Source: Methanobacteriota archaeon
Lineage (GTDB): Archaea; Thermoplasmatota; Poseidoniia; Poseidoniales; Poseidoniaceae
Length of the DNA stretch: 40,254 bases
Direction of reading: 5' to 3'
Assembly (NCBI GenBank): GCA_018667575.1
Contig: JABIUA010000089.1
Location: 1 to 40,254, forward strand
Position 1 is the first letter of the stretch, and each line of letters opens with the position of its first letter. The notes under the pieces were generated by a model. The model did not search any database, had not been told where the DNA came from, and saw nothing but the letters and a program-made list of their open reading frames with translations. The position numbers and the translations under genes were made by a program. Below are positions 1,044-30,085 of the stretch, one piece after another.

Positions 1044-1433
1044 TCAAAGTGGCTTGATCATAATAATTTTATTTTCTTTTGTAGCCATGCGCTTAGCAAC
1101 TTGCATTGCTGTCTTCAGGTCAATAGTAGCACCAAGTGTCTTTTCACCTTCAGAGTCATGGACTATCAATCTATGAGTTAGATTTTGTAAAACGCCATCT
1201 TCTATTCTCTCAAATACCCAATGTTCATTTTCAATTCTTATCATTGCTGGGACATCGACTAATGGGCCCATCTGGTTACCAGTAACTGTTGTTCGTGCTT
1301 TCAATCCTCTCAAATCTCTGATTGGATTCCAAGTTCTCATGCGAACTGGGGCTCTTACTTTTCTTTTATTTTCTACTCCGTCTCTAAACGCTCTAGTCAT
1401 TAGGGTCCCATCCCTTGAAGTCATTGACTTCAA
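1044..1433 (-). CDS. Hypothetical protein, basic N-terminus
   Basis: 129 aa ORF filling the gap between Sec61-beta and the membrane protein; no family recognised. Confidence 0.6.
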   Translation of the reverse strand: MKSMTSRDGTLMTRAFRDGVENKRKVRAPVRMRTWNPIRDLRGLKARTTVTGNQMGPLVDVPAMIRIENEHWVFERIEDGVLQNLTHRLIVHDSEGEKTLGATIDLKTAMQVAKRMATKENKIIMIKPL

Positions 1434-1494
1434 ACACAGGTTTGCCTATTCACTAATAAGAAGCGCGACAGAATCAAGGTTTAAAATACCGATT

Positions 1495-2892
1495 TCAAAC
1501 CATTTCGGCAGATTTCAATCGCTTGATGTGAAACTCAATACTCTTGCTGGCGAATAAACCTAACATCCAACCTGTAGCCAAGAAGCTCATCAAGGGCCAA
1601 TCGGTAGAGTAAGAGACAATTAGGATTGCTAAAGTCAAACACAATAATGGAATAATTGTGTAAAGTAAAGATGGTGATTGAACATCTGTTTCAATGAACC
1701 ACGGTTGAATCACACTAATAGCAAGCAATATCCAACTTGCTGGAAGTAAGAATAATGCGTATGGAGTAATCATGAATAGAATACTTGGAGTAAATATCAG
1801 CGACATCCTCAACCACCATATCTCCGGCCGAGATGCACCATCAAAGCCAAAATTCGGCAATATTAGAGAAATCGCCATGAAAATAACCATGCCAATCACC
1901 AACCAAATAGACTGTAAAATATATCCATTCCCTTGGTCAAATGGCTCACTATTTCTGAGGTAATTTGCTGTTATTAAAAATAGAAGAAGGCAATTAATTA
2001 CCAACTGGAAAGTCAACGAATTACTTCGACCCTCTCCATGTTGTAAATTTGCTTCAATCGATTTACTTGGTACTGTGATAAATGTCAAACCGATGGAATT
2101 GGATAAGAAAAATAGTAACATGGCAAAAGAACCGTCTTGGGAAATATTAGTCCACCAGGAATTAGTTGATTGGAGCGAATTTGATAACAAAAATATCATT
2201 ATTGGTAAGATTACATACATCTTCCATTTCGTTCTCTTTGAAAGGGTGTTTAGTCCTTGATCTGTTTGAGGAATCGTGGTGACTGCGAATAATTCACTAC
2301 TGACTAGAATCATGGCCCCTGTAGCGATTACTAGAATTGGTGAATAGATGCCAGTGGATGAATTAATAGTTTGTAAGGGCAGAGAATCTGGAGAATAATA
2401 AGAAGACTCCGGAAATAAGACCCAATACGAAACTAATGCACAAAAAGAAATGTATGTCATTATTCTATATTGAACCAGTTTTCTAATTTCTGCACTTGAT
2501 ATTGAAATACTCGGCAATTTATGACTCAAGAGGGCAAAACAAAGCAGGCCAAAAAGAATCATTTCTGAAGCGCCATCACCTGTAATCAGTAATTTCAAAT
2601 CTAAAAATTCAAAGTCGCCTGGCCCAAGTCTTTGGGCGATTTCTAAATATGACATGTCACGCTGTACAATGGTTCTTATACGGTTTAAAATCATAATTCC
2701 AACTACTATCAAAGGTCCAAATCGATGAATATTTAGGATTGACTTACCCACTGGTTGTGAGAATTTTTGACTATAAGATTCAATTTTTGAAGGAAGAAAC
2801 CATCCGACTAAAAGAAGTAGTAAAATTGGGAAGAGTAACGGTGCAGCATCCCCCAGCATATTCGAATCTAGGGGGCGAAAGCCCTTGAGCAT
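1495..2892 (-). CDS. Polytopic membrane protein of unknown function
   Basis: 465 aa ORF with about 12 hydrophobic segments; ORFs antisense to it are short. Confidence 0.75.
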   Translation of the reverse strand: MLKGFRPLDSNMLGDAAPLLFPILLLLLVGWFLPSKIESYSQKFSQPVGKSILNIHRFGPLIVVGIMILNRIRTIVQRDMSYLEIAQRLGPGDFEFLDLKLLITGDGASEMILFGLLCFALLSHKLPSISISSAEIRKLVQYRIMTYISFCALVSYWVLFPESSYYSPDSLPLQTINSSTGIYSPILVIATGAMILVSSELFAVTTIPQTDQGLNTLSKRTKWKMYVILPIMIFLLSNSLQSTNSWWTNISQDGSFAMLLFFLSNSIGLTFITVPSKSIEANLQHGEGRSNSLTFQLVINCLLLFLITANYLRNSEPFDQGNGYILQSIWLVIGMVIFMAISLILPNFGFDGASRPEIWWLRMSLIFTPSILFMITPYALFLLPASWILLAISVIQPWFIETDVQSPSLLYTIIPLLCLTLAILIVSYSTDWPLMSFLATGWMLGLFASKSIEFHIKRLKSAEMV

Positions 2893-2930
2893 GGCGGAAG
2901 CAAGATAGAGAAGATAGCAAACCGACAGTC

Positions 2931-4709
2931 ATGGCCAATGCTGGTTGGGTGGAGGAAGACCTCGATGAAATCTCGAGGGCGTCTTGTTTAACCAAACTGG
3001 CTTTAGAACTTGGAATGGACCTTGAATCTTGGATAAATACTACTACGTCGCCTCTTCCTGAAACACTTAGAGTCACAAAATCTCGTAAAGATAGAGAATG
3101 GACTATTTTGGAATTAGAAAAAATGGGAGCGAAACCAATCTCTTGGATGCCAGATAATAGCGCTTGGCAAATGCCATTTTCTCGAGGCAAGGTTCCAGAA
3201 GGCTACAGTAAGAGAATTTTGACAATACTACATGATTCAGGAAGAATCACTCGTCAAGAGGCTGCAAGTATGTTACCTGTAGAATTACTCAATCCAAAAG
3301 ACGGAGAGATGATCTTAGATCTATGTGCAGCCCCTGGTTCAAAAACCACTCAGTTAGCGGAAAAAATATTTCCTGAAGGTTTTGTAGTAGCAAATGAACC
3401 GGTGTCGGGAAGAGCAAATATGCTAATCTCAAATAGAGCTAGGCTCGCATTGCCAAATATTCTGATAAATCAGCAAGATGGCAGACATATTGGTAGAATC
3501 CCCCCTCCAGGGTTTGACGCAGTTCTTACCGATGTGCCGTGTACGGGAACTGCAACTACCCGTAAGAATCGTAAGATTTGGAAGAAGTGGACACCTAAAT
3601 CAAGCCGTGGATTATTCGAACTTCAAGTTTCAATAGTTTCAAGAGGCGCTAAACTGTTGAGACCTGATGGTAAACTAGTTTACTCGACATGTAGCATAGA
3701 TCCATGTGAAAATGAAGCAGTTGTCGCTGAAATTCTTCGTCAATGCCCATGGCTTGAATTGACTGATATCGATGAATCACTCGTTGATGGATTAGTCATG
3801 AAACCTGGCCTAAGTAAATGGAATATTCTTGATGAAAGTGGAGATAGAGTAGAACTAGGCGAAGAGTTGCCAAGACTACCTAATTTGAAACTCAAACATT
3901 TGTGTTCAGAAGATAGAGTCAAATTCGACCTCGAGTTTAATAACGAACTGGAAACTAAAATTTCTCAGGACCTAGTGAAATGTCGTAGACTACATCACAC
4001 CGATAATGATACTGGGGGCTTTTTTGTAGCAATATTTAGACATAAGCCCGAATCTACTCCTGAAGGAATTGCAAAGGCCTACATTCCAAAGCGGAAGCCT
4101 ATCGAAGGTTCTACTTGGGAACCGAAACTCATGGAACGCCCCAAGGCAAATCGGCATTCAGTATTCCTTGCTGATGAAGAAACGGTAAACCAAATATCTG
4201 AAGGATACCAAATCGATGCCAATAAATGGTCTTGGTGGAGCAGAGGAAAGAGATTAAACATAGCACCAAAATCTGTTGTCGATAGATTGTACAATCGCGT
4301 ATGTCCAAACAAAAGAGGAGATTTATGGCCTGCGGGTACATTCCATCCACTAAAGTTAATTCATGTAGGAATGCCAACTTTTGTTCAAAATAAAGGAACT
4401 TGGAGAACTAGGCAAGAAGCAATTCCTGCCCTAGAGTATGATTTAGGAAAAACTTGTATTGAGGTTGAAAAAGAAATTGCTATTCAAATGTTAGAAGGCT
4501 GGGTACCAACTGTTGAAGAATTTCAAGAAAAACTGGAGTTAGATGAATTGAGTGAAGGCCCGCTGCTACTGACTTGCCAACTTAGTGGGTCGGACTCCCT
4601 AATTTCTGCCTGGGCGGGAGTTAGAGTTAGTTTGATGATAAATACTCTTGAAAGAGATATACTCAGAGCAAAACTTGGAATTGAGTTTGAAAGTAAGAAT
4701 GGTGACTAA
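2931..4709 (+). CDS. NOL1/NOP2/Sun-family RNA (cytosine-C5) methyltransferase with C-terminal extension
   Basis: LDLCAAPGSKTTQLAE (SAM motif), TDVPCTGTATTRKN and YSTCSIDPCENEAVV (catalytic Cys motifs). Confidence 0.92.
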   Translation: MANAGWVEEDLDEISRASCLTKLALELGMDLESWINTTTSPLPETLRVTKSRKDREWTILELEKMGAKPISWMPDNSAWQMPFSRGKVPEGYSKRILTILHDSGRITRQEAASMLPVELLNPKDGEMILDLCAAPGSKTTQLAEKIFPEGFVVANEPVSGRANMLISNRARLALPNILINQQDGRHIGRIPPPGFDAVLTDVPCTGTATTRKNRKIWKKWTPKSSRGLFELQVSIVSRGAKLLRPDGKLVYSTCSIDPCENEAVVAEILRQCPWLELTDIDESLVDGLVMKPGLSKWNILDESGDRVELGEELPRLPNLKLKHLCSEDRVKFDLEFNNELETKISQDLVKCRRLHHTDNDTGGFFVAIFRHKPESTPEGIAKAYIPKRKPIEGSTWEPKLMERPKANRHSVFLADEETVNQISEGYQIDANKWSWWSRGKRLNIAPKSVVDRLYNRVCPNKRGDLWPAGTFHPLKLIHVGMPTFVQNKGTWRTRQEAIPALEYDLGKTCIEVEKEIAIQMLEGWVPTVEEFQEKLELDELSEGPLLLTCQLSGSDSLISAWAGVRVSLMINTLERDILRAKLGIEFESKNGD

Positions 4710-21716: not shown

Positions 21717-23294
21717 TCACATTGAGAAGTCGGAGAAATTATCCTCTTCGTCAAAACTACTTTTCTTTGGCTCTTGCTCGGGAACTGGCTCAGGAGTGGC
21801 ACTCTTGACACTCTTACGCTTTCTCACCGTTTTCTTTTTCTTAATAACTGGATTAATATCGCCAGATATTGCACTGTCTTGAATATTATATGTTATATTC
21901 TGTACAATTGTCTTACTTTTGGCAACACTAGAGAAATGCTCTCTCTTAGGCTTGACTGGCTCACTACTAACCACATTGCTAGAACGTTGCTCCATGCGAG
22001 GTTCTCTCTTTGGAGGCTGCCAAGCAGGCTTCTCTTCTTCTTGGTAAGAGTAATCTCGAGATTCACTATTTCCTGATTCCTGCTGGTCATCTATTTTTAT
22101 TGATTCTGATGTTGCTACGACTGAAGAACCACTACCTCCAAATTCGGATGTTTTTCCTTGGGATGGAGAAGAAGAAAGTACGCTATCTAAATCAAAACCT
22201 GCAATTGTACTTTCTTGTTTTTTAGAAGGTTTACTAGATTTTTGCTCGGCTTTGTTTTCTTCTTTGGCTTGTCTATCGAGTTGTTTTGTTCTCTCTTTAG
22301 GAGATATCATTCCCGACGCTTTGGACCTACGCAAATCAGAGGCGACTTTCTTTATTTTATCCATCCCTTCTTTCCCAAGTAAAGTCTTCATTGTTGACCT
22401 GGCGCCATGTAAAACAAATAATTGTGACAGAATGAAAAGGCCAAATCCTCCGCCTAAACCAACGACTAAGAAGAATATGATGTACCCTGCTCTACCAAAA
22501 AATGGAACATCGCCGTAAGTCCACTCATCTTTAGATTCTCCATCATCACTAACAACTGCACCATCAAGAATTATTCTATCGACTAGAACATATACACTCT
22601 GTCTGTGTGGTTCACCAATTACAAGATTACAGTTAGAGTCAACTTTGTGGCTAGAAGATGAATTTCCTGACTTAAAATATCCATTTGACGTCACATTTTC
22701 GATTGGATTGACTAAGTACCCTTCTATGGTAACAGGTTGATGCCACTCATCTAATGAGCGCATTCCATCATGTATGTTTTCAGTGGTTGGAATTAAAGCT
22801 AGTACATACCAGTAGTCATCACTTTCACTATCTACTTCATCTAAATCGAAAGGTGTTGCTCCTGTTTGCGGGTCTAAAGGTCTATACCACTCTTTGAGGT
22901 CAACCCTAGGACTCTGGCCCTCGAGAACATTACTGGCTTTATCAAAAGACATTGATTGAATTGCTACTGAGGTAGTCACTGCTAATTCAAGGTCATTAGC
23001 GCCGTTAATTTCGTCGTGAGACTCATAGAAATAACTCGATGAAAGTAAACCGGTAAAGGAGATAGTTGAAGATGAATCTGTTGTAAGATAATTGGTAGTT
23101 CCTTCTTCACAACCCACGGGTAAAACATTTTCATATTCAATGGAAGAAGCGCCAAGATCTGAATCGATTTTTGTTCCTTCTTGGGAGAAGTCAACCTCTA
23201 CTCCGTCAGAACCCCAAGAAGCAGTTTCAGGGCCAAGACAGCCAGCCAAGGTCATCAGTGCAAGGAGATAAACCGCCAACACTACTCTTCGCAT
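21717..23294 (-). CDS. Lipoprotein/membrane protein with cytoplasmic disordered tail containing the QNITYNIQDSAISGD motif
   Basis: N-terminal lipobox MRRVVLAVYLLALMTLAGCLG; TM segment GYIIFFLVVGLGGGFGLFILSQLFVL; charged C-terminus with TIVQNITYNIQDSAISGDINP. Confidence 0.8.
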   Translation of the reverse strand: MRRVVLAVYLLALMTLAGCLGPETASWGSDGVEVDFSQEGTKIDSDLGASSIEYENVLPVGCEEGTTNYLTTDSSSTISFTGLLSSSYFYESHDEINGANDLELAVTTSVAIQSMSFDKASNVLEGQSPRVDLKEWYRPLDPQTGATPFDLDEVDSESDDYWYVLALIPTTENIHDGMRSLDEWHQPVTIEGYLVNPIENVTSNGYFKSGNSSSSHKVDSNCNLVIGEPHRQSVYVLVDRIILDGAVVSDDGESKDEWTYGDVPFFGRAGYIIFFLVVGLGGGFGLFILSQLFVLHGARSTMKTLLGKEGMDKIKKVASDLRRSKASGMISPKERTKQLDRQAKEENKAEQKSSKPSKKQESTIAGFDLDSVLSSSPSQGKTSEFGGSGSSVVATSESIKIDDQQESGNSESRDYSYQEEEKPAWQPPKREPRMEQRSSNVVSSEPVKPKREHFSSVAKSKTIVQNITYNIQDSAISGDINPVIKKKKTVRKRKSVKSATPEPVPEQEPKKSSFDEEDNFSDFSM

Positions 23295-23505: not shown

Positions 23506-25074
23506 CTAATTTTCTTCTTCATTCGACGTGCTGCGGACATTTATTGCAATTGCAGCAGTACCTAAAGCAATGAACGCCATGGCAAAGGTAAGACCAGGAA
23601 TTCCTTCGCTTGAATCGTCGATTAAACCTTCAATTTCGGCTAAGGTTTCTATGTCCTCTATAAATTCCGAAGGATCCCAATTATCTCCGGTCCAAGCTAC
23701 TCTTGGTTTACGCTCTCTATCTAGGATGAAAGTTGTCGTTGAGTGTCCAACCGAATATTCTTCTTCCGCCTCTACTGCCACACATGACAACATTGTTCCT
23801 TCAGGCCACTCATAACCTCCATCACACATGCAATGCTTTCCAGAACCTGAACCCATTTCCCAACCGTGGCCATCACAAACTTGGCTAGATTGTTGGTCAA
23901 TCATACTTTGAACTGCCCCCGGAATTGGGATATCAGAATCTGCAGTCGTATTTCGTGCCCATGCTATATACTGAGGTTCTTTTATCGAATCAACACCGAG
24001 TTGGGAGTATTCCCAAGACATATCGGATTCATTCCATGTGTGTAGTTCCCAGTACCAAGACCAATTATCCAAAGCAGGATCCTCATCATTGAAAGAAGAG
24101 AAAAAATGACCGAATTGAGAATGTTTTGAAGAGGAATAGTTCAAATCTGCTCCATCAAATGCCCCAACTGTCAAGTGCCAAGCGGTCAAATCACTTTCAT
24201 CAAAGGTATAACTCTCAGAAATATTTTCTGGATAAACAATCGACATACCATACGTATCATCGGTAGGAGTTTGAAGTAAGTTTTCATCGGCATTTGATGC
24301 GATATAAGCGATGTTTGGATATTCTTCAACATCTACGAAATCAACTCCAACATTCGATTCTTGCCAAGCGCTAGAAGTTTCATTATAGGTCATAAATCGC
24401 CAGTACCAAGACCAATCCGCAGGAGACTCTGTACCATTAATACCAGAAATCATATGTCCATATTCTGGATGCTTGGAATAGTTCAGTGAAATATTGTTTT
24501 GGTCGACCACCGCATTAGTCAAAGACCATGCTGTTGGCAAAAACATCAATTCTGATGAATTACCCTCGCCATCGACAAATGTAACCGTTGAATCATTAGA
24601 CTGATGTCCATTTCCATCAGCAATATGTGCTTCGATTACATTCTTTTGTACTACAAGTCCAAAACTGTTCCAGACTTCTTCCATCACTTCTAATTCGCCT
24701 GTCAAGTGAGACCAATTTGCATCGTGTAATTCACTGAAATCTTTCAGTCTCTCAGGAGTATCATATTCAGGGTCAACTGATATTGAAATAAAACCCACAT
24801 CATCGCTATATTCGGAGGAAAGTCCATCTTGAACTGACCTCAATGATTGAGTGATTACTGGGCATACATCAGTACATCGAGTAAATATGAAAGCAACAAC
24901 AAGAATTTCACCATTTGTGAGACTCAAAGTTACGTTATTCTCATCTTGGTCGATCAAAGTAAAATCGGTAACTGAACCTCGAGATAACTGATATCCTTTG
25001 TATGCCGAAGTAGTTGGCACAAGGGAGACCAATAGTATACTAATCAAGAAAAATGCTACTACTCGTACTTTCAT
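23506..25074 (-). CDS. SCO1/SenC-family copper chaperone with large insertion and C-terminal TM
   Basis: Signal peptide; VVAFIFTRCTDVCPVITQSL, ISISVDPEYDTPERLKDF; later YSVGHSTTTFILDRERKPRVAW...FIEDIETL; C-terminal hydrophobic helix. Confidence 0.88.
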   Translation of the reverse strand: MKVRVVAFFLISILLVSLVPTTSAYKGYQLSRGSVTDFTLIDQDENNVTLSLTNGEILVVAFIFTRCTDVCPVITQSLRSVQDGLSSEYSDDVGFISISVDPEYDTPERLKDFSELHDANWSHLTGELEVMEEVWNSFGLVVQKNVIEAHIADGNGHQSNDSTVTFVDGEGNSSELMFLPTAWSLTNAVVDQNNISLNYSKHPEYGHMISGINGTESPADWSWYWRFMTYNETSSAWQESNVGVDFVDVEEYPNIAYIASNADENLLQTPTDDTYGMSIVYPENISESYTFDESDLTAWHLTVGAFDGADLNYSSSKHSQFGHFFSSFNDEDPALDNWSWYWELHTWNESDMSWEYSQLGVDSIKEPQYIAWARNTTADSDIPIPGAVQSMIDQQSSQVCDGHGWEMGSGSGKHCMCDGGYEWPEGTMLSCVAVEAEEEYSVGHSTTTFILDRERKPRVAWTGDNWDPSEFIEDIETLAEIEGLIDDSSEGIPGLTFAMAFIALGTAAIAINVRSTSNEEEN

Positions 25075-25113: not shown

Positions 25114-25500
25114 TCAGCGGGTAGCATAATCCCAATCCGGAGTACACCATGATGGTAATTCAGTCACTGCTTCTGGATTGGAAAGTCCAATTCCCCAAAG
25201 CATCAATAATACAAATAATACTGGAAATAATGCAGTTCTAGTATAAATTCGTGGATCGCCGCGTAAGTGCATAAAGTAAGCAGCAATTCCGTAACCCTTT
25301 ATGATTCCAACGCCAATAAGGACGCCCCATACCATCAGTCTTGTAATCTCTATTTCAGTACCTGGTATTTTCTCGAAGAATACCGCGCCTACTTCAAAAA
25401 GAGTGAAGAACATCAAGACTAAAAAGTTCCAGAAGTAGATGTCTTTACCAGTTTTATCCAAAAGCCATTTTTCGATTCCTGTTGTTGCATGTTCACCCAT
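25114..25500 (-). CDS. Cytochrome c oxidase subunit IV-like protein
   Basis: Three TM segments, KGYGIAAYFMHLRGDPRIY (prokaryotic COX4 signature), immediately downstream of COX III. Confidence 0.85.
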   Translation of the reverse strand: MGEHATTGIEKWLLDKTGKDIYFWNFLVLMFFTLFEVGAVFFEKIPGTEIEITRLMVWGVLIGVGIIKGYGIAAYFMHLRGDPRIYTRTALFPVLFVLLMLWGIGLSNPEAVTELPSWCTPDWDYATR

Positions 25501-25509
25501 TTAATCACC

Positions 25510-26793
25510 TCAATACAAATAAAATGCTGGGAAAATTACCACCCACGCCAAATCTACAAAGTGCCAATAAAGACCGAAATATTCGATTCCTTGGCCATTG
25601 TCTTCATCAAATCCAACTGTATCGGATTTGAAGATTAAGTAAAGCATTACTAGAAGACCAACGAAAACGTGAAGTCCGTGAGCACCAGTAGCAACATAGA
25701 AGATAGAACCTTGAGGGCTACCTATATCGAAGCCTTCTGCGACAAGGTGGCTCCATTCTACAAGTTTCAGAACAATGAACAGAGAGCCGAGTAGAAGAGT
25801 TGCTATCAAATAATTTCTAATTGCTCTCTTCTTATCAGGTAGAACAAAGCGCATAAAATTTGTAGGTGCTTCCCAATTCTTATTCTTGGCTGTCTTCAAT
25901 GCTAATACAATGGTGTATGATGAAACAATTAGCGCAAAGGTGTTTATTGCTCCTGGCATTAAAGTAGCAACATCATATCTTAACAGATCTGAAGCGGTTG
26001 TGACATTTCCTTCTGCAACTCCATAACACTTATCGCCGCTCTCTGATGCACGGATTGCCCAATCAGTACACCATTCCGTTCTGACACGAAGATATGAGGA
26101 GAAGAAAGTTGCGAAAACCATAATCTCAGACATAATGAATACCCAAATACCTGCTTTTCTGATGTGTTCACCTTCGAAAGGTGCAGAAGTAGCGATTTGC
26201 TCACCATGCCCAATGAATGGTAAATCTTCTTTCCACCAATTTGCTATACCAAGCATAACGAAATTCAAACCAATGAGGCTTAGAAGAATATCTCCGAATG
26301 CAAATGTACCGCCTTGAGACATAAGTGCTTTACAGGCAACTACGAAACTTGGGAAGCCCATCAAGAATAACATTATTCCTAAACTGAAAACAATAGGAGA
26401 TGCTGACCCATGATGCTCTTCATGCCCGTGGTCATCATGTCCATGGTCATCATCTGATTGTAAAGCATTTACAAACCCACCAATTCCAAGGAATATGGCA
26501 TAGATGCTGAACATCACCAAGATAGTTACTCCTGCTACACGATAAGTCAAGAAAGATAGATGTGCTTCTTCTTCAGCATGATAAAGGTGGTCCAGTTCTT
26601 CACTTGTGGTCAAAGGATCTTCTTTGGCATCATGATAGGCATGCTTTGCATCATCATAGACGTCATGCTTCTGATTTGCAACTCCTATTCCAAGAGCGGC
26701 GAAAGCAATTATTCCAATGACTGCAAAAATTCCAGCCATCATTACGGCATGCATCCATGTCGAGTTTTCAACATGGTTGTTGTGTGAACTCAT
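25510..26793 (-). CDS. Cytochrome c oxidase subunit III with N-terminal extension
   Basis: GIWVFIMSEIMVFATFFSSYLRVR...PGAINTFALIVSSYTIVLALK...GSIFYVATGAHGLHVFVGLLVMLYL...EYFGLYWHFVDLAWVVIFPAFYLY. Confidence 0.95.
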   Translation of the reverse strand: MSSHNNHVENSTWMHAVMMAGIFAVIGIIAFAALGIGVANQKHDVYDDAKHAYHDAKEDPLTTSEELDHLYHAEEEAHLSFLTYRVAGVTILVMFSIYAIFLGIGGFVNALQSDDDHGHDDHGHEEHHGSASPIVFSLGIMLFLMGFPSFVVACKALMSQGGTFAFGDILLSLIGLNFVMLGIANWWKEDLPFIGHGEQIATSAPFEGEHIRKAGIWVFIMSEIMVFATFFSSYLRVRTEWCTDWAIRASESGDKCYGVAEGNVTTASDLLRYDVATLMPGAINTFALIVSSYTIVLALKTAKNKNWEAPTNFMRFVLPDKKRAIRNYLIATLLLGSLFIVLKLVEWSHLVAEGFDIGSPQGSIFYVATGAHGLHVFVGLLVMLYLIFKSDTVGFDEDNGQGIEYFGLYWHFVDLAWVVIFPAFYLY

Positions 26794-29108
26794 TCTTCAG
26801 CCCCCTTTGCTTTACCTTTCCATAATTTATCTGAAAGCGAATCCTTGTCAGAATGATGCCCGTACAACTCATTCATATCTCCCTGTGTAGGAATATCATG
26901 GAATGATGGAGTTGGTGGTGGCGAGGTAGTAGACCATTCAAGCGACCATCCGCCCCATGGGTCTTTGCCAACAGGCTCTCCAGACCTTCTGGAATGGAAT
27001 ATATTCCAAGCTAGCAGAAGTTGACTTAGACCGAAAATGAATGCAAATATGCTGACTGCAAGGTTATACTCGGCAAATCCAGTTTCCTCTAGATAAGAAT
27101 GAGTTCTTCTTGGCATACCCATAATCCCTAGTTTGTGCATTGGCCAGAAAGCGGCATTGTAAGAAGAAAATCCAATCAAGAAATGCCACAGCCCTAGTTT
27201 TTCGTTCAACTTACGGCCTGTCACCTTGGGATACCAGTAGTAAACCCCAGAGAATAATGCGAAGACAGTACCGCCAATGAATACGTAGTGGAAGTGAGCC
27301 ACAACGAAGTATGAATCGTGGAAGTGAATATCAAGTCCTGCAACAGGGAAGAACATTCCAGAAATTCCACCAAGTGTGAACGTAACTAAGAATCCAAGAG
27401 ACCAGAGAGTGTGAGTCTTCATTACTAGACTTCCACCCCATAGAGTTGCCAACCAATTGAATATTTTAGCACCGGTAGGAATTGCTACTGCCATTGTGGT
27501 TACCATGAAAGCTGCACGCCAGAAAGCGTCCATACCCGATGTTAACATGTGGTGGCCCCAAACAATGAATCCTACAACACCGATTCCAGCCATTGCTAGA
27601 ACCATTGACTTGTATCCAAAGATAGATCTGCGCGCACTTGTAGCAAGTACTTCAGAAACTATTCCGAATGCAGGAACAATCACCACGTATACCTCTGGAT
27701 GTCCGAAGAACCAGAACAGGTGCTGGAATAGTAATCCATCACCACCACTAGTGAAGAAAACCGTTCCAATCGTGTGGTCAAAGAGCAGGAATACCAATCC
27801 TATGACCAATGCTGGAAGCGACATATATAGCATGAATACGCTAACGAATACTGACCAAGAGAACAATGGCATCTTCATCCAAGTAACACCAGGAGCGCGC
27901 ATTGTAAACACTGTAGTGATGAAATTTACACCACTGAGTGTAGATGATGCACCAAGCATCAACATTCCCGAAAGAAAGGCTGTTGTTCCAAGGTTAGAAC
28001 CATATTGAGCCATTCCTTCGCCAAGGTTAGCTTCGGTTAATGAAGAATAAGGCGGGTACATAACCCATGTAATATCTGCTGCCTCTCCTGACCAAATTCC
28101 AGTGTAAATCAAAGGACTGGAGAACACAAGTAGCCAAAGACCCATTGCATTGATTCTAGGGAATGCTAAGTCTTTAGCACCAATCTGTAGTGGTAATACA
28201 TAGTTCATGAATCCAGCAATCATTGGCATTGCTGCTAGGAAAATCATTGTAGTACCGTGAAGGGTAAAGAAAGAGTTGTATTCTGTCTCGGTCAAGAAAG
28301 TATTCTCTGGAATCGCCAGTTGTATTCTAAACAATAACGCAAGGAAACCACCAACGAGGAAGAAAATGAATCCATATAAGAAATACATGACACCGACTTC
28401 TTTGTGGTCAGTTGTAGTTAACCACGGTTTGAGGTAAGCCCAGAAATTACCCAGTGTGAATGTATCAGGAGAACGGGAATAGTAAACCCACAAAATTCCA
28501 AGTAAAACCAGTCCCAAAGCAAGCCCTATAGCAGTTAAAAGTAATACAAGTGCTCTAACACTTGGCGCTAAATCTCCAGCGTTAATTCCTGATACAGTTG
28601 TTTGGTACGAGTTCCACATGTCTCCTTGAGAGCCAGAACCTCCATTTACTGCATTAGCATTGATAGTGAATTCTGTAAACACTGTATCATCTGCTGGAGC
28701 AACCCATTCGAAGTCCCATGTTCGGAATTTATTACCTTCATCAGTATGAGTTAAGCCACCCTCTTTCTCTTGACTTAAGGTCGGGTCAACTGAAGTCACA
28801 GTACCTTTTGAAGCAAGTATTCTAAATCCACCAGCACGAGTATTCCAGCCATCTTCTTCAATACCATCGGCCCACAGAGTCATAGCGTCATTGGTGACAG
28901 TGACAGTGAATGGGTAGGTTTCGCTCGCATTGAATTGTTCAGGTAATCCAGTAACAGTAACTGTGGTATCTGCTGAAGGACTTCCGTGACAAGAACATCC
29001 GTTATCTCCAATGTTGCCAATTCCTCCCGGGGCTGCAGTAAATTGAGGGATTGCAAACATTGATAATAATATCAATCCCAAAATTCCAATTGCAAGTTTA
29101 CGCATCAA
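26790..29108 (-). CDS. Cytochrome c oxidase subunit I with N-terminal secreted domain
   Basis: FTLHGTTMIFLAAMP, WFFGHPEVYVVIVPAFGIVSEV, VWGHHMLTSGMD, HFHDSYFVVAHFHYVFIGG; first ~190 aa are a signal peptide plus a beta-rich domain. Confidence 0.97.
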   Translation of the reverse strand: MMRKLAIGILGLILLSMFAIPQFTAAPGGIGNIGDNGCSCHGSPSADTTVTVTGLPEQFNASETYPFTVTVTNDAMTLWADGIEEDGWNTRAGGFRILASKGTVTSVDPTLSQEKEGGLTHTDEGNKFRTWDFEWVAPADDTVFTEFTINANAVNGGSGSQGDMWNSYQTTVSGINAGDLAPSVRALVLLLTAIGLALGLVLLGILWVYYSRSPDTFTLGNFWAYLKPWLTTTDHKEVGVMYFLYGFIFFLVGGFLALLFRIQLAIPENTFLTETEYNSFFTLHGTTMIFLAAMPMIAGFMNYVLPLQIGAKDLAFPRINAMGLWLLVFSSPLIYTGIWSGEAADITWVMYPPYSSLTEANLGEGMAQYGSNLGTTAFLSGMLMLGASSTLSGVNFITTVFTMRAPGVTWMKMPLFSWSVFVSVFMLYMSLPALVIGLVFLLFDHTIGTVFFTSGGDGLLFQHLFWFFGHPEVYVVIVPAFGIVSEVLATSARRSIFGYKSMVLAMAGIGVVGFIVWGHHMLTSGMDAFWRAAFMVTTMAVAIPTGAKIFNWLATLWGGSLVMKTHTLWSLGFLVTFTLGGISGMFFPVAGLDIHFHDSYFVVAHFHYVFIGGTVFALFSGVYYWYPKVTGRKLNEKLGLWHFLIGFSSYNAAFWPMHKLGIMGMPRRTHSYLEETGFAEYNLAVSIFAFIFGLSQLLLAWNIFHSRRSGEPVGKDPWGGWSLEWSTTSPPPTPSFHDIPTQGDMNELYGHHSDKDSLSDKLWKGKAKGAEE

Positions 29109-30085
29109 TTACCGCCTCCTTCTTTTGGAATGCCGGAATCTTCATCGCAATTTGTGTAAACTCCGTCAATGAATGGCGATACAACATCTACCTTTCCAAT
29201 CATCTTCGAATGGTCCATTCCGCAGTATTCAGCGCAACGTATGTCATATGTTCCTGGGTCATCAGGGAGGAACCACATCATTGTCCCGCCTTCTAGACCA
29301 GGGACTAGGTCTTCTTTAACGCCCCATTCTGGTAACCAGAATGAGTGTTGAACGCCCCAGTAGGTGCTGTTTAATTCGCTGTAATCACTTGTTAAAGAGA
29401 ACAGTGAAAGTACTACTTCATCATCGCATGGCACGATCATATGTTCGCCCAGTGCAGTAGATAATTGATGATTGATTGGAATATGATTCCAAGTATGCAA
29501 TACATTTCCTTCCAAATCGGTCACCTCAACTGTGGAATGACTGAAATTATCGAAACTAGATGAGATTGTCTTTACGCCTAACTGTGAGTCTAGCGAATAA
29601 TCCAAAACAACTGTTCCAATGGTGATTGTCATATTGGTGGCATCAGGATTACTCGAGAACTGAACTACTAAGTCTTGCCCCCAGTTAACATCTATACCTG
29701 TGACACGTGGGTCATCTTGCCAGGTCAGCTCTTCGTTGTAATTAAACTCCCAAAACCACTGCTTTCCAATGACTTCCATATTGAAAGATTCATCTTCATC
29801 TGGTATTACCCACACTTGCGTATTGGACGATAAGGACAAGACCACTAGCCAAACAACTAAGATTGTAGGGACAACATAGAATAAAACTTCTAATCTGGTA
29901 TTATGTCGCTCCACAGGGAAAGAACCGACAACGATATGGTCTAAATCAGTGGTGTCCGGGACAATGTTTTGCCGGTACCTTGCCATAGCATAAAACATCC
30001 ACGCAAAGGTTAGAATTCCAACTAAAATTCCCCAAAACAGGAACTTCTCGTAAAGCACAGAAAAAACGGTGTCGTCTGCTGGCAT
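29105..30085 (-). CDS. Cytochrome c oxidase subunit II (CuA)
   Basis: VIGKQWFWEFNY, VQHSFWLPEWGVKEDLVPG, CuA motif YDIRCAEYCGMDHSKMIG; two N-terminal TMs. Confidence 0.96.
   Translation of the reverse strand: MPADDTVFSVLYEKFLFWGILVGILTFAWMFYAMARYRQNIVPDTTDLDHIVVGSFPVERHNTRLEVLFYVVPTILVVWLVVLSLSSNTQVWVIPDEDESFNMEVIGKQWFWEFNYNEELTWQDDPRVTGIDVNWGQDLVVQFSSNPDATNMTITIGTVVLDYSLDSQLGVKTISSSFDNFSHSTVEVTDLEGNVLHTWNHIPINHQLSTALGEHMIVPCDDEVVLSLFSLTSDYSELNSTYWGVQHSFWLPEWGVKEDLVPGLEGGTMMWFLPDDPGTYDIRCAEYCGMDHSKMIGKVDVVSPFIDGVYTNCDEDSGIPKEGGGN

Follow-up and report, generated by a model that had tools for sequence, protein, structure and literature searches.

A copper chaperone of the SCO family with DUF4430-type domain insertions in marine archaea of the order Poseidoniales

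The SCO gene and its surroundings

The window, a stretch of 40,254 nucleotides, comes from a genome of the Poseidoniales (Marine Group II), archaea which are amongst the commonest in the surface ocean and are uncultivated. The genome (G000) comprises 198 contigs at 88% completeness, and close homologues of the protein described here come from Candidatus Poseidoniaceae and Poseidoniales metagenome-assembled genomes (MAGs). The gene at the centre of the analysis is one uninterrupted open reading frame, 23506-25074(-), of which the stretch that first drew attention (23755-24642) covers residues ~145-440 (Table 1). It is the last of five genes on the same strand, in the order coxII-coxI-coxIII-coxIV-SCO, and the CuA site encoded by coxII is the likely client of the SCO protein.

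Table 1. Features of the SCO gene and of the oxidase genes adjoining it (window coordinates)
Feature	Positions	Strand	Basis or remarks
SCO1/SenC copper chaperone with inserted domains, whole gene	23506..25074	(-)	522 aa + stop
Predicted signal peptide, residues 1-24 (..LVPTTSA|YKGYQ)	25003..25074	(-)	read from sequence: hydrophobic stretch, AxA-like site
N-terminal half of SCO domain, residues 35-149	24628..24972	(-)	PF02630 match 36-149; solved SCO structures
C67-x3-C71 (CTDVC), two of the three SCO copper ligands	24862..24876	(-)	alignment to BsSco/TtSco
Inserted domain 1 (DUF4430/transcobalamin-beta-like), residues 161-271	24262..24594	(-)	iterated HMM E 4e-41 (small set of fetched loci); model pLDDT 79.7; Foldseek
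Inserted domain 2 (DUF4430/transcobalamin-beta-like), residues 278-386	23917..24243	(-)	iterated HMM E 2e-37 (small set of fetched loci); similarity to domain 1
Four-Cys segment CDGHGWEMGSGSGKHCMCDGGYEWPEGTMLSC, residues 400-431	23782..23877	(-)	EGF-like spacing C-x14-C-x-C-x2-G-Y-x9-C
C-terminal half of SCO domain, residues 438-485, with Cu-ligand H444 (codon 23743-23745)	23620..23763	(-)
C-terminal PG(L/F)-TM-basic tail, residues 492-522: putative PGF-CTERM-like archaeosortase signal or TM anchor	23509..23601	(-)
Cytochrome oxidase subunit IV (COX4_pro), next gene upstream of SCO	25114..25500	(-)	Pfam
Cytochrome oxidase subunit III	25510..26793	(-)	Pfam
Cytochrome oxidase subunit I	26790..29108	(-)	Pfam
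Cytochrome oxidase subunit II with CuA motif CAEYCGMDHSKM	29105..30085	(-)	Pfam

Subunit I carries an N-terminal extension of ~235 residues ahead of PF00115, containing a GCSCHG motif and giving no Pfam match. In subunit III a His-rich stretch, DDDHGHDDHGHEEHHG, lies within an extended N-terminal part, and PF00510 covers only residues 320-426. Downstream of the SCO gene lies a conserved and syntenic gene for a lipoprotein-like product of 525 aa (21717-23294(-)), also with no Pfam match.

Full-length homologues with 47-82% identity, the named ones all derived from MAGs, were found in 11 other public MAGs and in ~19 genomes of the same genus. The original prediction had allowed that an assembly artefact might have joined two genes at this locus. 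Such a misassembly was ruled out, as every full-length homologue, like the window itself, has an unbroken open frame, and these homologues come from independent MAGs and retain the synteny; a frameshifted pseudogene was ruled out likewise, the independent MAGs sharing an intact frame and conserved flanks. Nothing was found in favour of either, and we regard the chance of such an origin as negligible.

The C-terminal tail of a homologue, L037, scored 22.2 bits against the PGF-CTERM model TIGR04126 (cut-off 24.5), and the archaeosortase TIGR04125 was found above its cut-off in 12 of the 13 genomes searched, the exception being the source genome, which is 88% complete. A tail of this type together with TIGR04125 suggests that proteins of Marine Group II may undergo archaeosortase processing.

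A split SCO domain with intact copper ligands

When the whole protein was compared with the Pfam SCO1-SenC family (PF02630), only residues 36-149 were matched (E 3.2e-27, 95.6 bits), whilst removal of residues 152-435 extended the match to profile positions 2-132 of 134 and raised the score to 107.2 bits. The SCO fold is therefore interrupted after residue ~149 and taken up again at ~438. The split by an insertion was part of the original prediction and is borne out by this comparison, although the insert proper, at ~287 residues (150-437), is slightly smaller than the ~300 extra residues first estimated; nor does the inserted region turn out to be ordinary SCO fold.

The C-terminal segment was aligned by phmmer to the solved SCO proteins 1xzo (Bacillus subtilis Sco) and 2k6v (Thermus thermophilus Sco1). 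As the spliced sequence aligns through the C-terminal Cu-ligand His, the insertion sits in the loop just before H444. This closeness of the insert to the copper site is known along the chain only, the full-length model being poor outside the repeats. All of the 33 two-repeat homologues share C67, C71 and H444, and 68/68 of the SCO sequences collected have CxxxC. Domain match, copper ligands and linkage to a CuA oxidase all argue for membership of SCO1/SenC, as judged from sequence.

Two inserted domains of DUF4430/transcobalamin-beta type

Most of the insert is made up of two blocks. These are homologous to each other by BLASTP (41% identity over 74 residues, E 2e-17) as well as by iterated HMM searches, in agreement with the internal duplication proposed at the outset. 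As a single sequence the insert had no match in Pfam or NCBIfam, no DUF4430 (PF14478) match was reported by the Pfam scan of the window protein, and a sequence-based PDB profile search returned chance matches only. Amongst relatives the signal is marginal: 2 of the 19 members of the domain alignment match DUF4430 (best E 0.0019), and the insert of a same-genus SCO protein (G010:C39) lies at the DUF4430 HMM cut-off of 23.8 bits, scoring 23.2 bits by itself and 24 with its neighbours.

A full-length AlphaFold model based on 12 sequences was of poor quality (mean pLDDT 50.9) and usable for the repeats only, hence a separate model of one repeat was made. Repeat 1, modelled from 22 aligned repeats, reached a mean pLDDT of 79.7, and in a Foldseek search its 14 best PDB matches were all either beta domains of transcobalamin and intrinsic factor or 3u7z (protein RUMGNA_00854), which we take to be a DUF4430 structure. 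These 14 matches had probabilities of 0.85-1.00, TM scores of up to 0.53 and E-values of 0.02-1.0, none of them below 0.001; such modest E-values provide a fold assignment and not evidence of close homology. A DUF4430-type resemblance had been noticed from the letters, with a structure model and Foldseek search suggested as the check, and both the search and the marginal HMM matches of family members support it. We interpret the inserted domain as DUF4430/transcobalamin-beta-like and divergent.

Conservation across all copies of the domain is limited to Trp and Gly/Asp/Ser positions. There is no invariant His, Cys or Met in all copies, thus the domain itself need not bind metal; a conserved metal site within the repeats was rejected on the lack of an invariant His or Cys, and metal binding by the repeats is not indicated by their sequences. 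In most two-repeat genera the first and the second repeat each fall into a clade of their own (100/99 and 88/91), which implies that the duplication is old and that both copies have been kept. For g12, a second group that has two to three copies, it is less clear how the copies correspond to repeat 1 and repeat 2.

A conserved four-cysteine segment

Between the second repeat and the point at which the SCO fold resumes lies the Cys-rich segment already seen to follow the two blocks, now placed at residues 400-431 and containing four cysteines in the pattern C-x-G-x-G-x2-M-G-x-G-x3-H-C-M-C-x2-G-[YF]-x9-C. M407, H414, C415, M416 and C417 do not vary amongst the 33 two-repeat SCO proteins, and the second family and sister group f3 retain the M and HCMC. 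The segment occurs at most once per genome, and 34/34 matches in the source genome and its relatives fall in SCO reading frames. An EGF domain proper was rejected: the spacing resembles the last part of such a domain, but there are four cysteines rather than six and the EGF-type matches of homologues are sub-threshold (cEGF, E 0.0022; EGF_Teneurin, E 0.005), so the segment is not classed as EGF. The HCMC segment may bind copper or serve as a disulfide switch.

A few lineages are without the segment. Its loss is associated with His-rich linkers (mean 3.6 vs 8.7 His, p 3e-6), an association which should be considered suggestive only, as the regular expression used missed a few carriers of the segment and the losses are confined to ~3 lineages.

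Distribution and phylogeny

The DUF4430-like repeat was found in 134 of the 146 genomes sampled from the order, and the number of copies per SCO protein ranges from one to three. A survey of SCO homologues in related genomes had been suggested together with the original prediction, and it reveals that the layout and the synteny recur family-wide with this range of copy numbers. The Poseidoniaceae loci retain the order coxIII-coxIV-SCO, as do two genera of the second family; in other genera of that second family the insert-bearing SCO gene is found in tandem with a plain one. In a tree of the SCO core, the reading of which is limited by midpoint rooting and long branches, six plain paralogues are set apart from the rest at 100/99, and the remainder is insert-bearing except for L030 (His-rich linker) and L051 (thioredoxin). 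At locus L050 the second SCO paralogue of a genome, a plain one, adjoins a gene for an LVIVD-repeat beta-propeller (L050:640-1296(-) and 1306-3096(-)).

No description of an SCO protein with domain insertions of this kind was found in the open-access papers searched, in keeping with the remark, made when the layout was first noticed, that none was known. The SCO protein with DUF4430-type insertions, conserved through a major order of marine archaea, is a new variant within the SCO family.

Other modules in the slot and other hosts of the domain

The position before the Cu-ligand His is occupied differently in other lineages. In a sister lineage (L051 and L151-L154) a complete TlpA-like thioredoxin lies there together with an EGF-like Cys element; L051 matches AhpC-TSA and Redoxin over residues ~264-380, besides its SCO1-SenC match, and an equivalent layout was read in L151-L154. 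A His-rich linker is found there in yet other lineages.

Conversely, the domain has other hosts. It is embedded amongst long His/Asp-rich linkers of ZnuA-type zinc-binding proteins (PF01297; L043-L049, L070-L072, L074, L078, L080, L093 and L100), one of which, L045, also has EF-hands. Two further proteins (L094:242-2080(-) and L136:931-2496(+)) combine a plastocyanin-family domain (PF00127) with one or two DUF4430-like domains after it and a TM segment at the C-terminus. Elsewhere in the phylum, in other Thermoplasmatota, the domain is joined to PQQ/BamB propellers and other extracellular proteins, and it may thus be a general module.

In the same genomes bona fide DUF4430 proteins, of which some have a BamB-like propeller, are encoded beside DUF6580 membrane proteins (L111, L112, L116, L118-L120 and L129), in L129 beside a putative EcfT/EcfA. 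In our reading these membrane proteins look like subunits of ECF transporters, Pfam naming only DUF6580 and an ABC ATPase, and it is possible that the loci serve vitamin uptake.

Discussion

Little is known of how archaea deliver copper to their respiratory oxidases. Bacterial SCO works with partners of the PCuAC and TlpA types. An SCO core with an intact copper site, encoded in an oxidase operon, makes a role in CuA maturation the default, by analogy with the family. We give about an even chance to the proposal that the protein is a CuA-assembly chaperone which carries partner or ligand-binding modules in cis. An extracytoplasmic, membrane-anchored chaperone would then deliver copper to the CuA site of the oxidase encoded upstream, or keep that site reduced. 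The loop immediately before the Cu-ligand His would be a slot that took in accessory modules, here two DUF4430-like domains and the M...HCMC segment, which join the chain next to the copper ligand and would most likely act in cis. The repeats would presumably bind a partner or a copper-carrying ligand, with metal or electrons passing to the SCO centre, the Cys segment contributing copper or redox chemistry, and the modules as a whole might take the place of PCuAC, TlpA or other partners that are separate proteins.

SCO is known to work with TlpA, as seen in the mixed-disulfide TlpA-ScoI complex (4txo). Given the TlpA-like domain in the slot of the sister lineage, the simplest account common to both lineages is that slot modules serve the SCO copper/thiol site in cis. 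PCuAC, a partner of SCO in bacteria (PMC9145763), was not detected in 40/40 relatives, in which the positive controls were detected; this absence is no evidence on what replaces it.

The same repeats could be docking or spacer modules on oxidase or cell-surface components, with no part in handling copper or small ligands. Tandem small beta domains with conserved aromatics and no conserved metal ligands would suit such a role, as would a copy number that ranges from one to three and the joining of the domain to unrelated extracellular proteins in other Thermoplasmatota. However, every host found in the present group other than the DUF4430 proteins is a metal protein (SCO, ZnuA or plastocyanin), the domain within SCO is located at the loop preceding a metal ligand, and the adjacent Cys segment is strictly conserved and found only in SCO; we therefore consider docking possible but somewhat unlikely. 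It could also be argued that a tolerant surface loop gained self-folding domains with no effect on function, which drift has kept, and the way in which the contents of the slot differ by lineage (one to three DUF4430-like domains, a thioredoxin or a His-rich linker) would fit. Neutral accretion of this sort is improbable, however, in light of the retention of both repeats as separate clades, an M...HCMC that is invariant from the Poseidoniaceae to sister group f3, and the presence of the repeat in most genomes of the order.

As the fold comes closest to that of the beta domains with which transcobalamin and intrinsic factor bind cobalamin, the DUF4430-like domains might be thought to bind cobalamin or another corrinoid or tetrapyrrole, tying B12 or haem supply to oxidase assembly. 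Transcobalamin and intrinsic factor, though, enclose cobalamin between an alpha and a beta domain, and the SCO protein has no alpha-barrel partner; the separate bona fide DUF4430 proteins beside ECF-like membrane proteins are the more likely route for B12, and the hosts of this DUF4430-like subfamily handle Cu or Zn, which leaves cobalamin binding highly improbable. A bolder idea, in which we place little confidence, is that the domains are lids that grasp organically complexed metal from seawater (Cu for SCO, Zn for ZnuA) and hand it to the site of the host, copper passing via M...HCMC; copper chaperone, zinc-binding protein and plastocyanin would then have in common a module with the fold of an animal vitamin B12 carrier.

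If the chaperone does carry swappable modules beside its copper ligand, it would show that oxidase assembly can proceed without PCuAC and would provide a function for a DUF4430-related subfamily, and the acquisition of scarce, organically bound metals by these archaea would become testable with purified proteins. The findings suggest a wider theme in which modules are placed at metal sites.

Comparison with known systems

With characterised SCO1/SenC proteins (BsSco 1xzo, T. thermophilus Sco1 2k6v and human SCO1) the window protein shares the thioredoxin-like fold, the CxxxC and distal His, membrane anchoring on the outer side and a gene linked to cytochrome oxidase; the known structures have a short loop at the point where it carries ~287 residues in three modules. 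The insert resembles DUF4430 (PF14478) and the beta domain of transcobalamin and intrinsic factor (3u7z, 5no0 and 2pmv) in fold by Foldseek, in marginal HMM similarity, in the arrangement of strand-strand-helix then strands, and in G and W positions. It differs in being mostly sub-threshold in Pfam, in being nested in a copper chaperone and in having no cobalamin-binding alpha domain. PCuAC, an external copper donor to CuA with Met/His ligands, is the proposed functional counterpart of the insert; none of the 40 relatives yielded a homologue of it. In the TlpA-ScoI system of Bradyrhizobium (4txo) an SCO protein and a thioredoxin-like reductant act together as separate proteins, whereas the sister lineages L051 and L151-L154 have a TlpA-like domain inside SCO itself, and in the window protein the same slot holds DUF4430-like domains.
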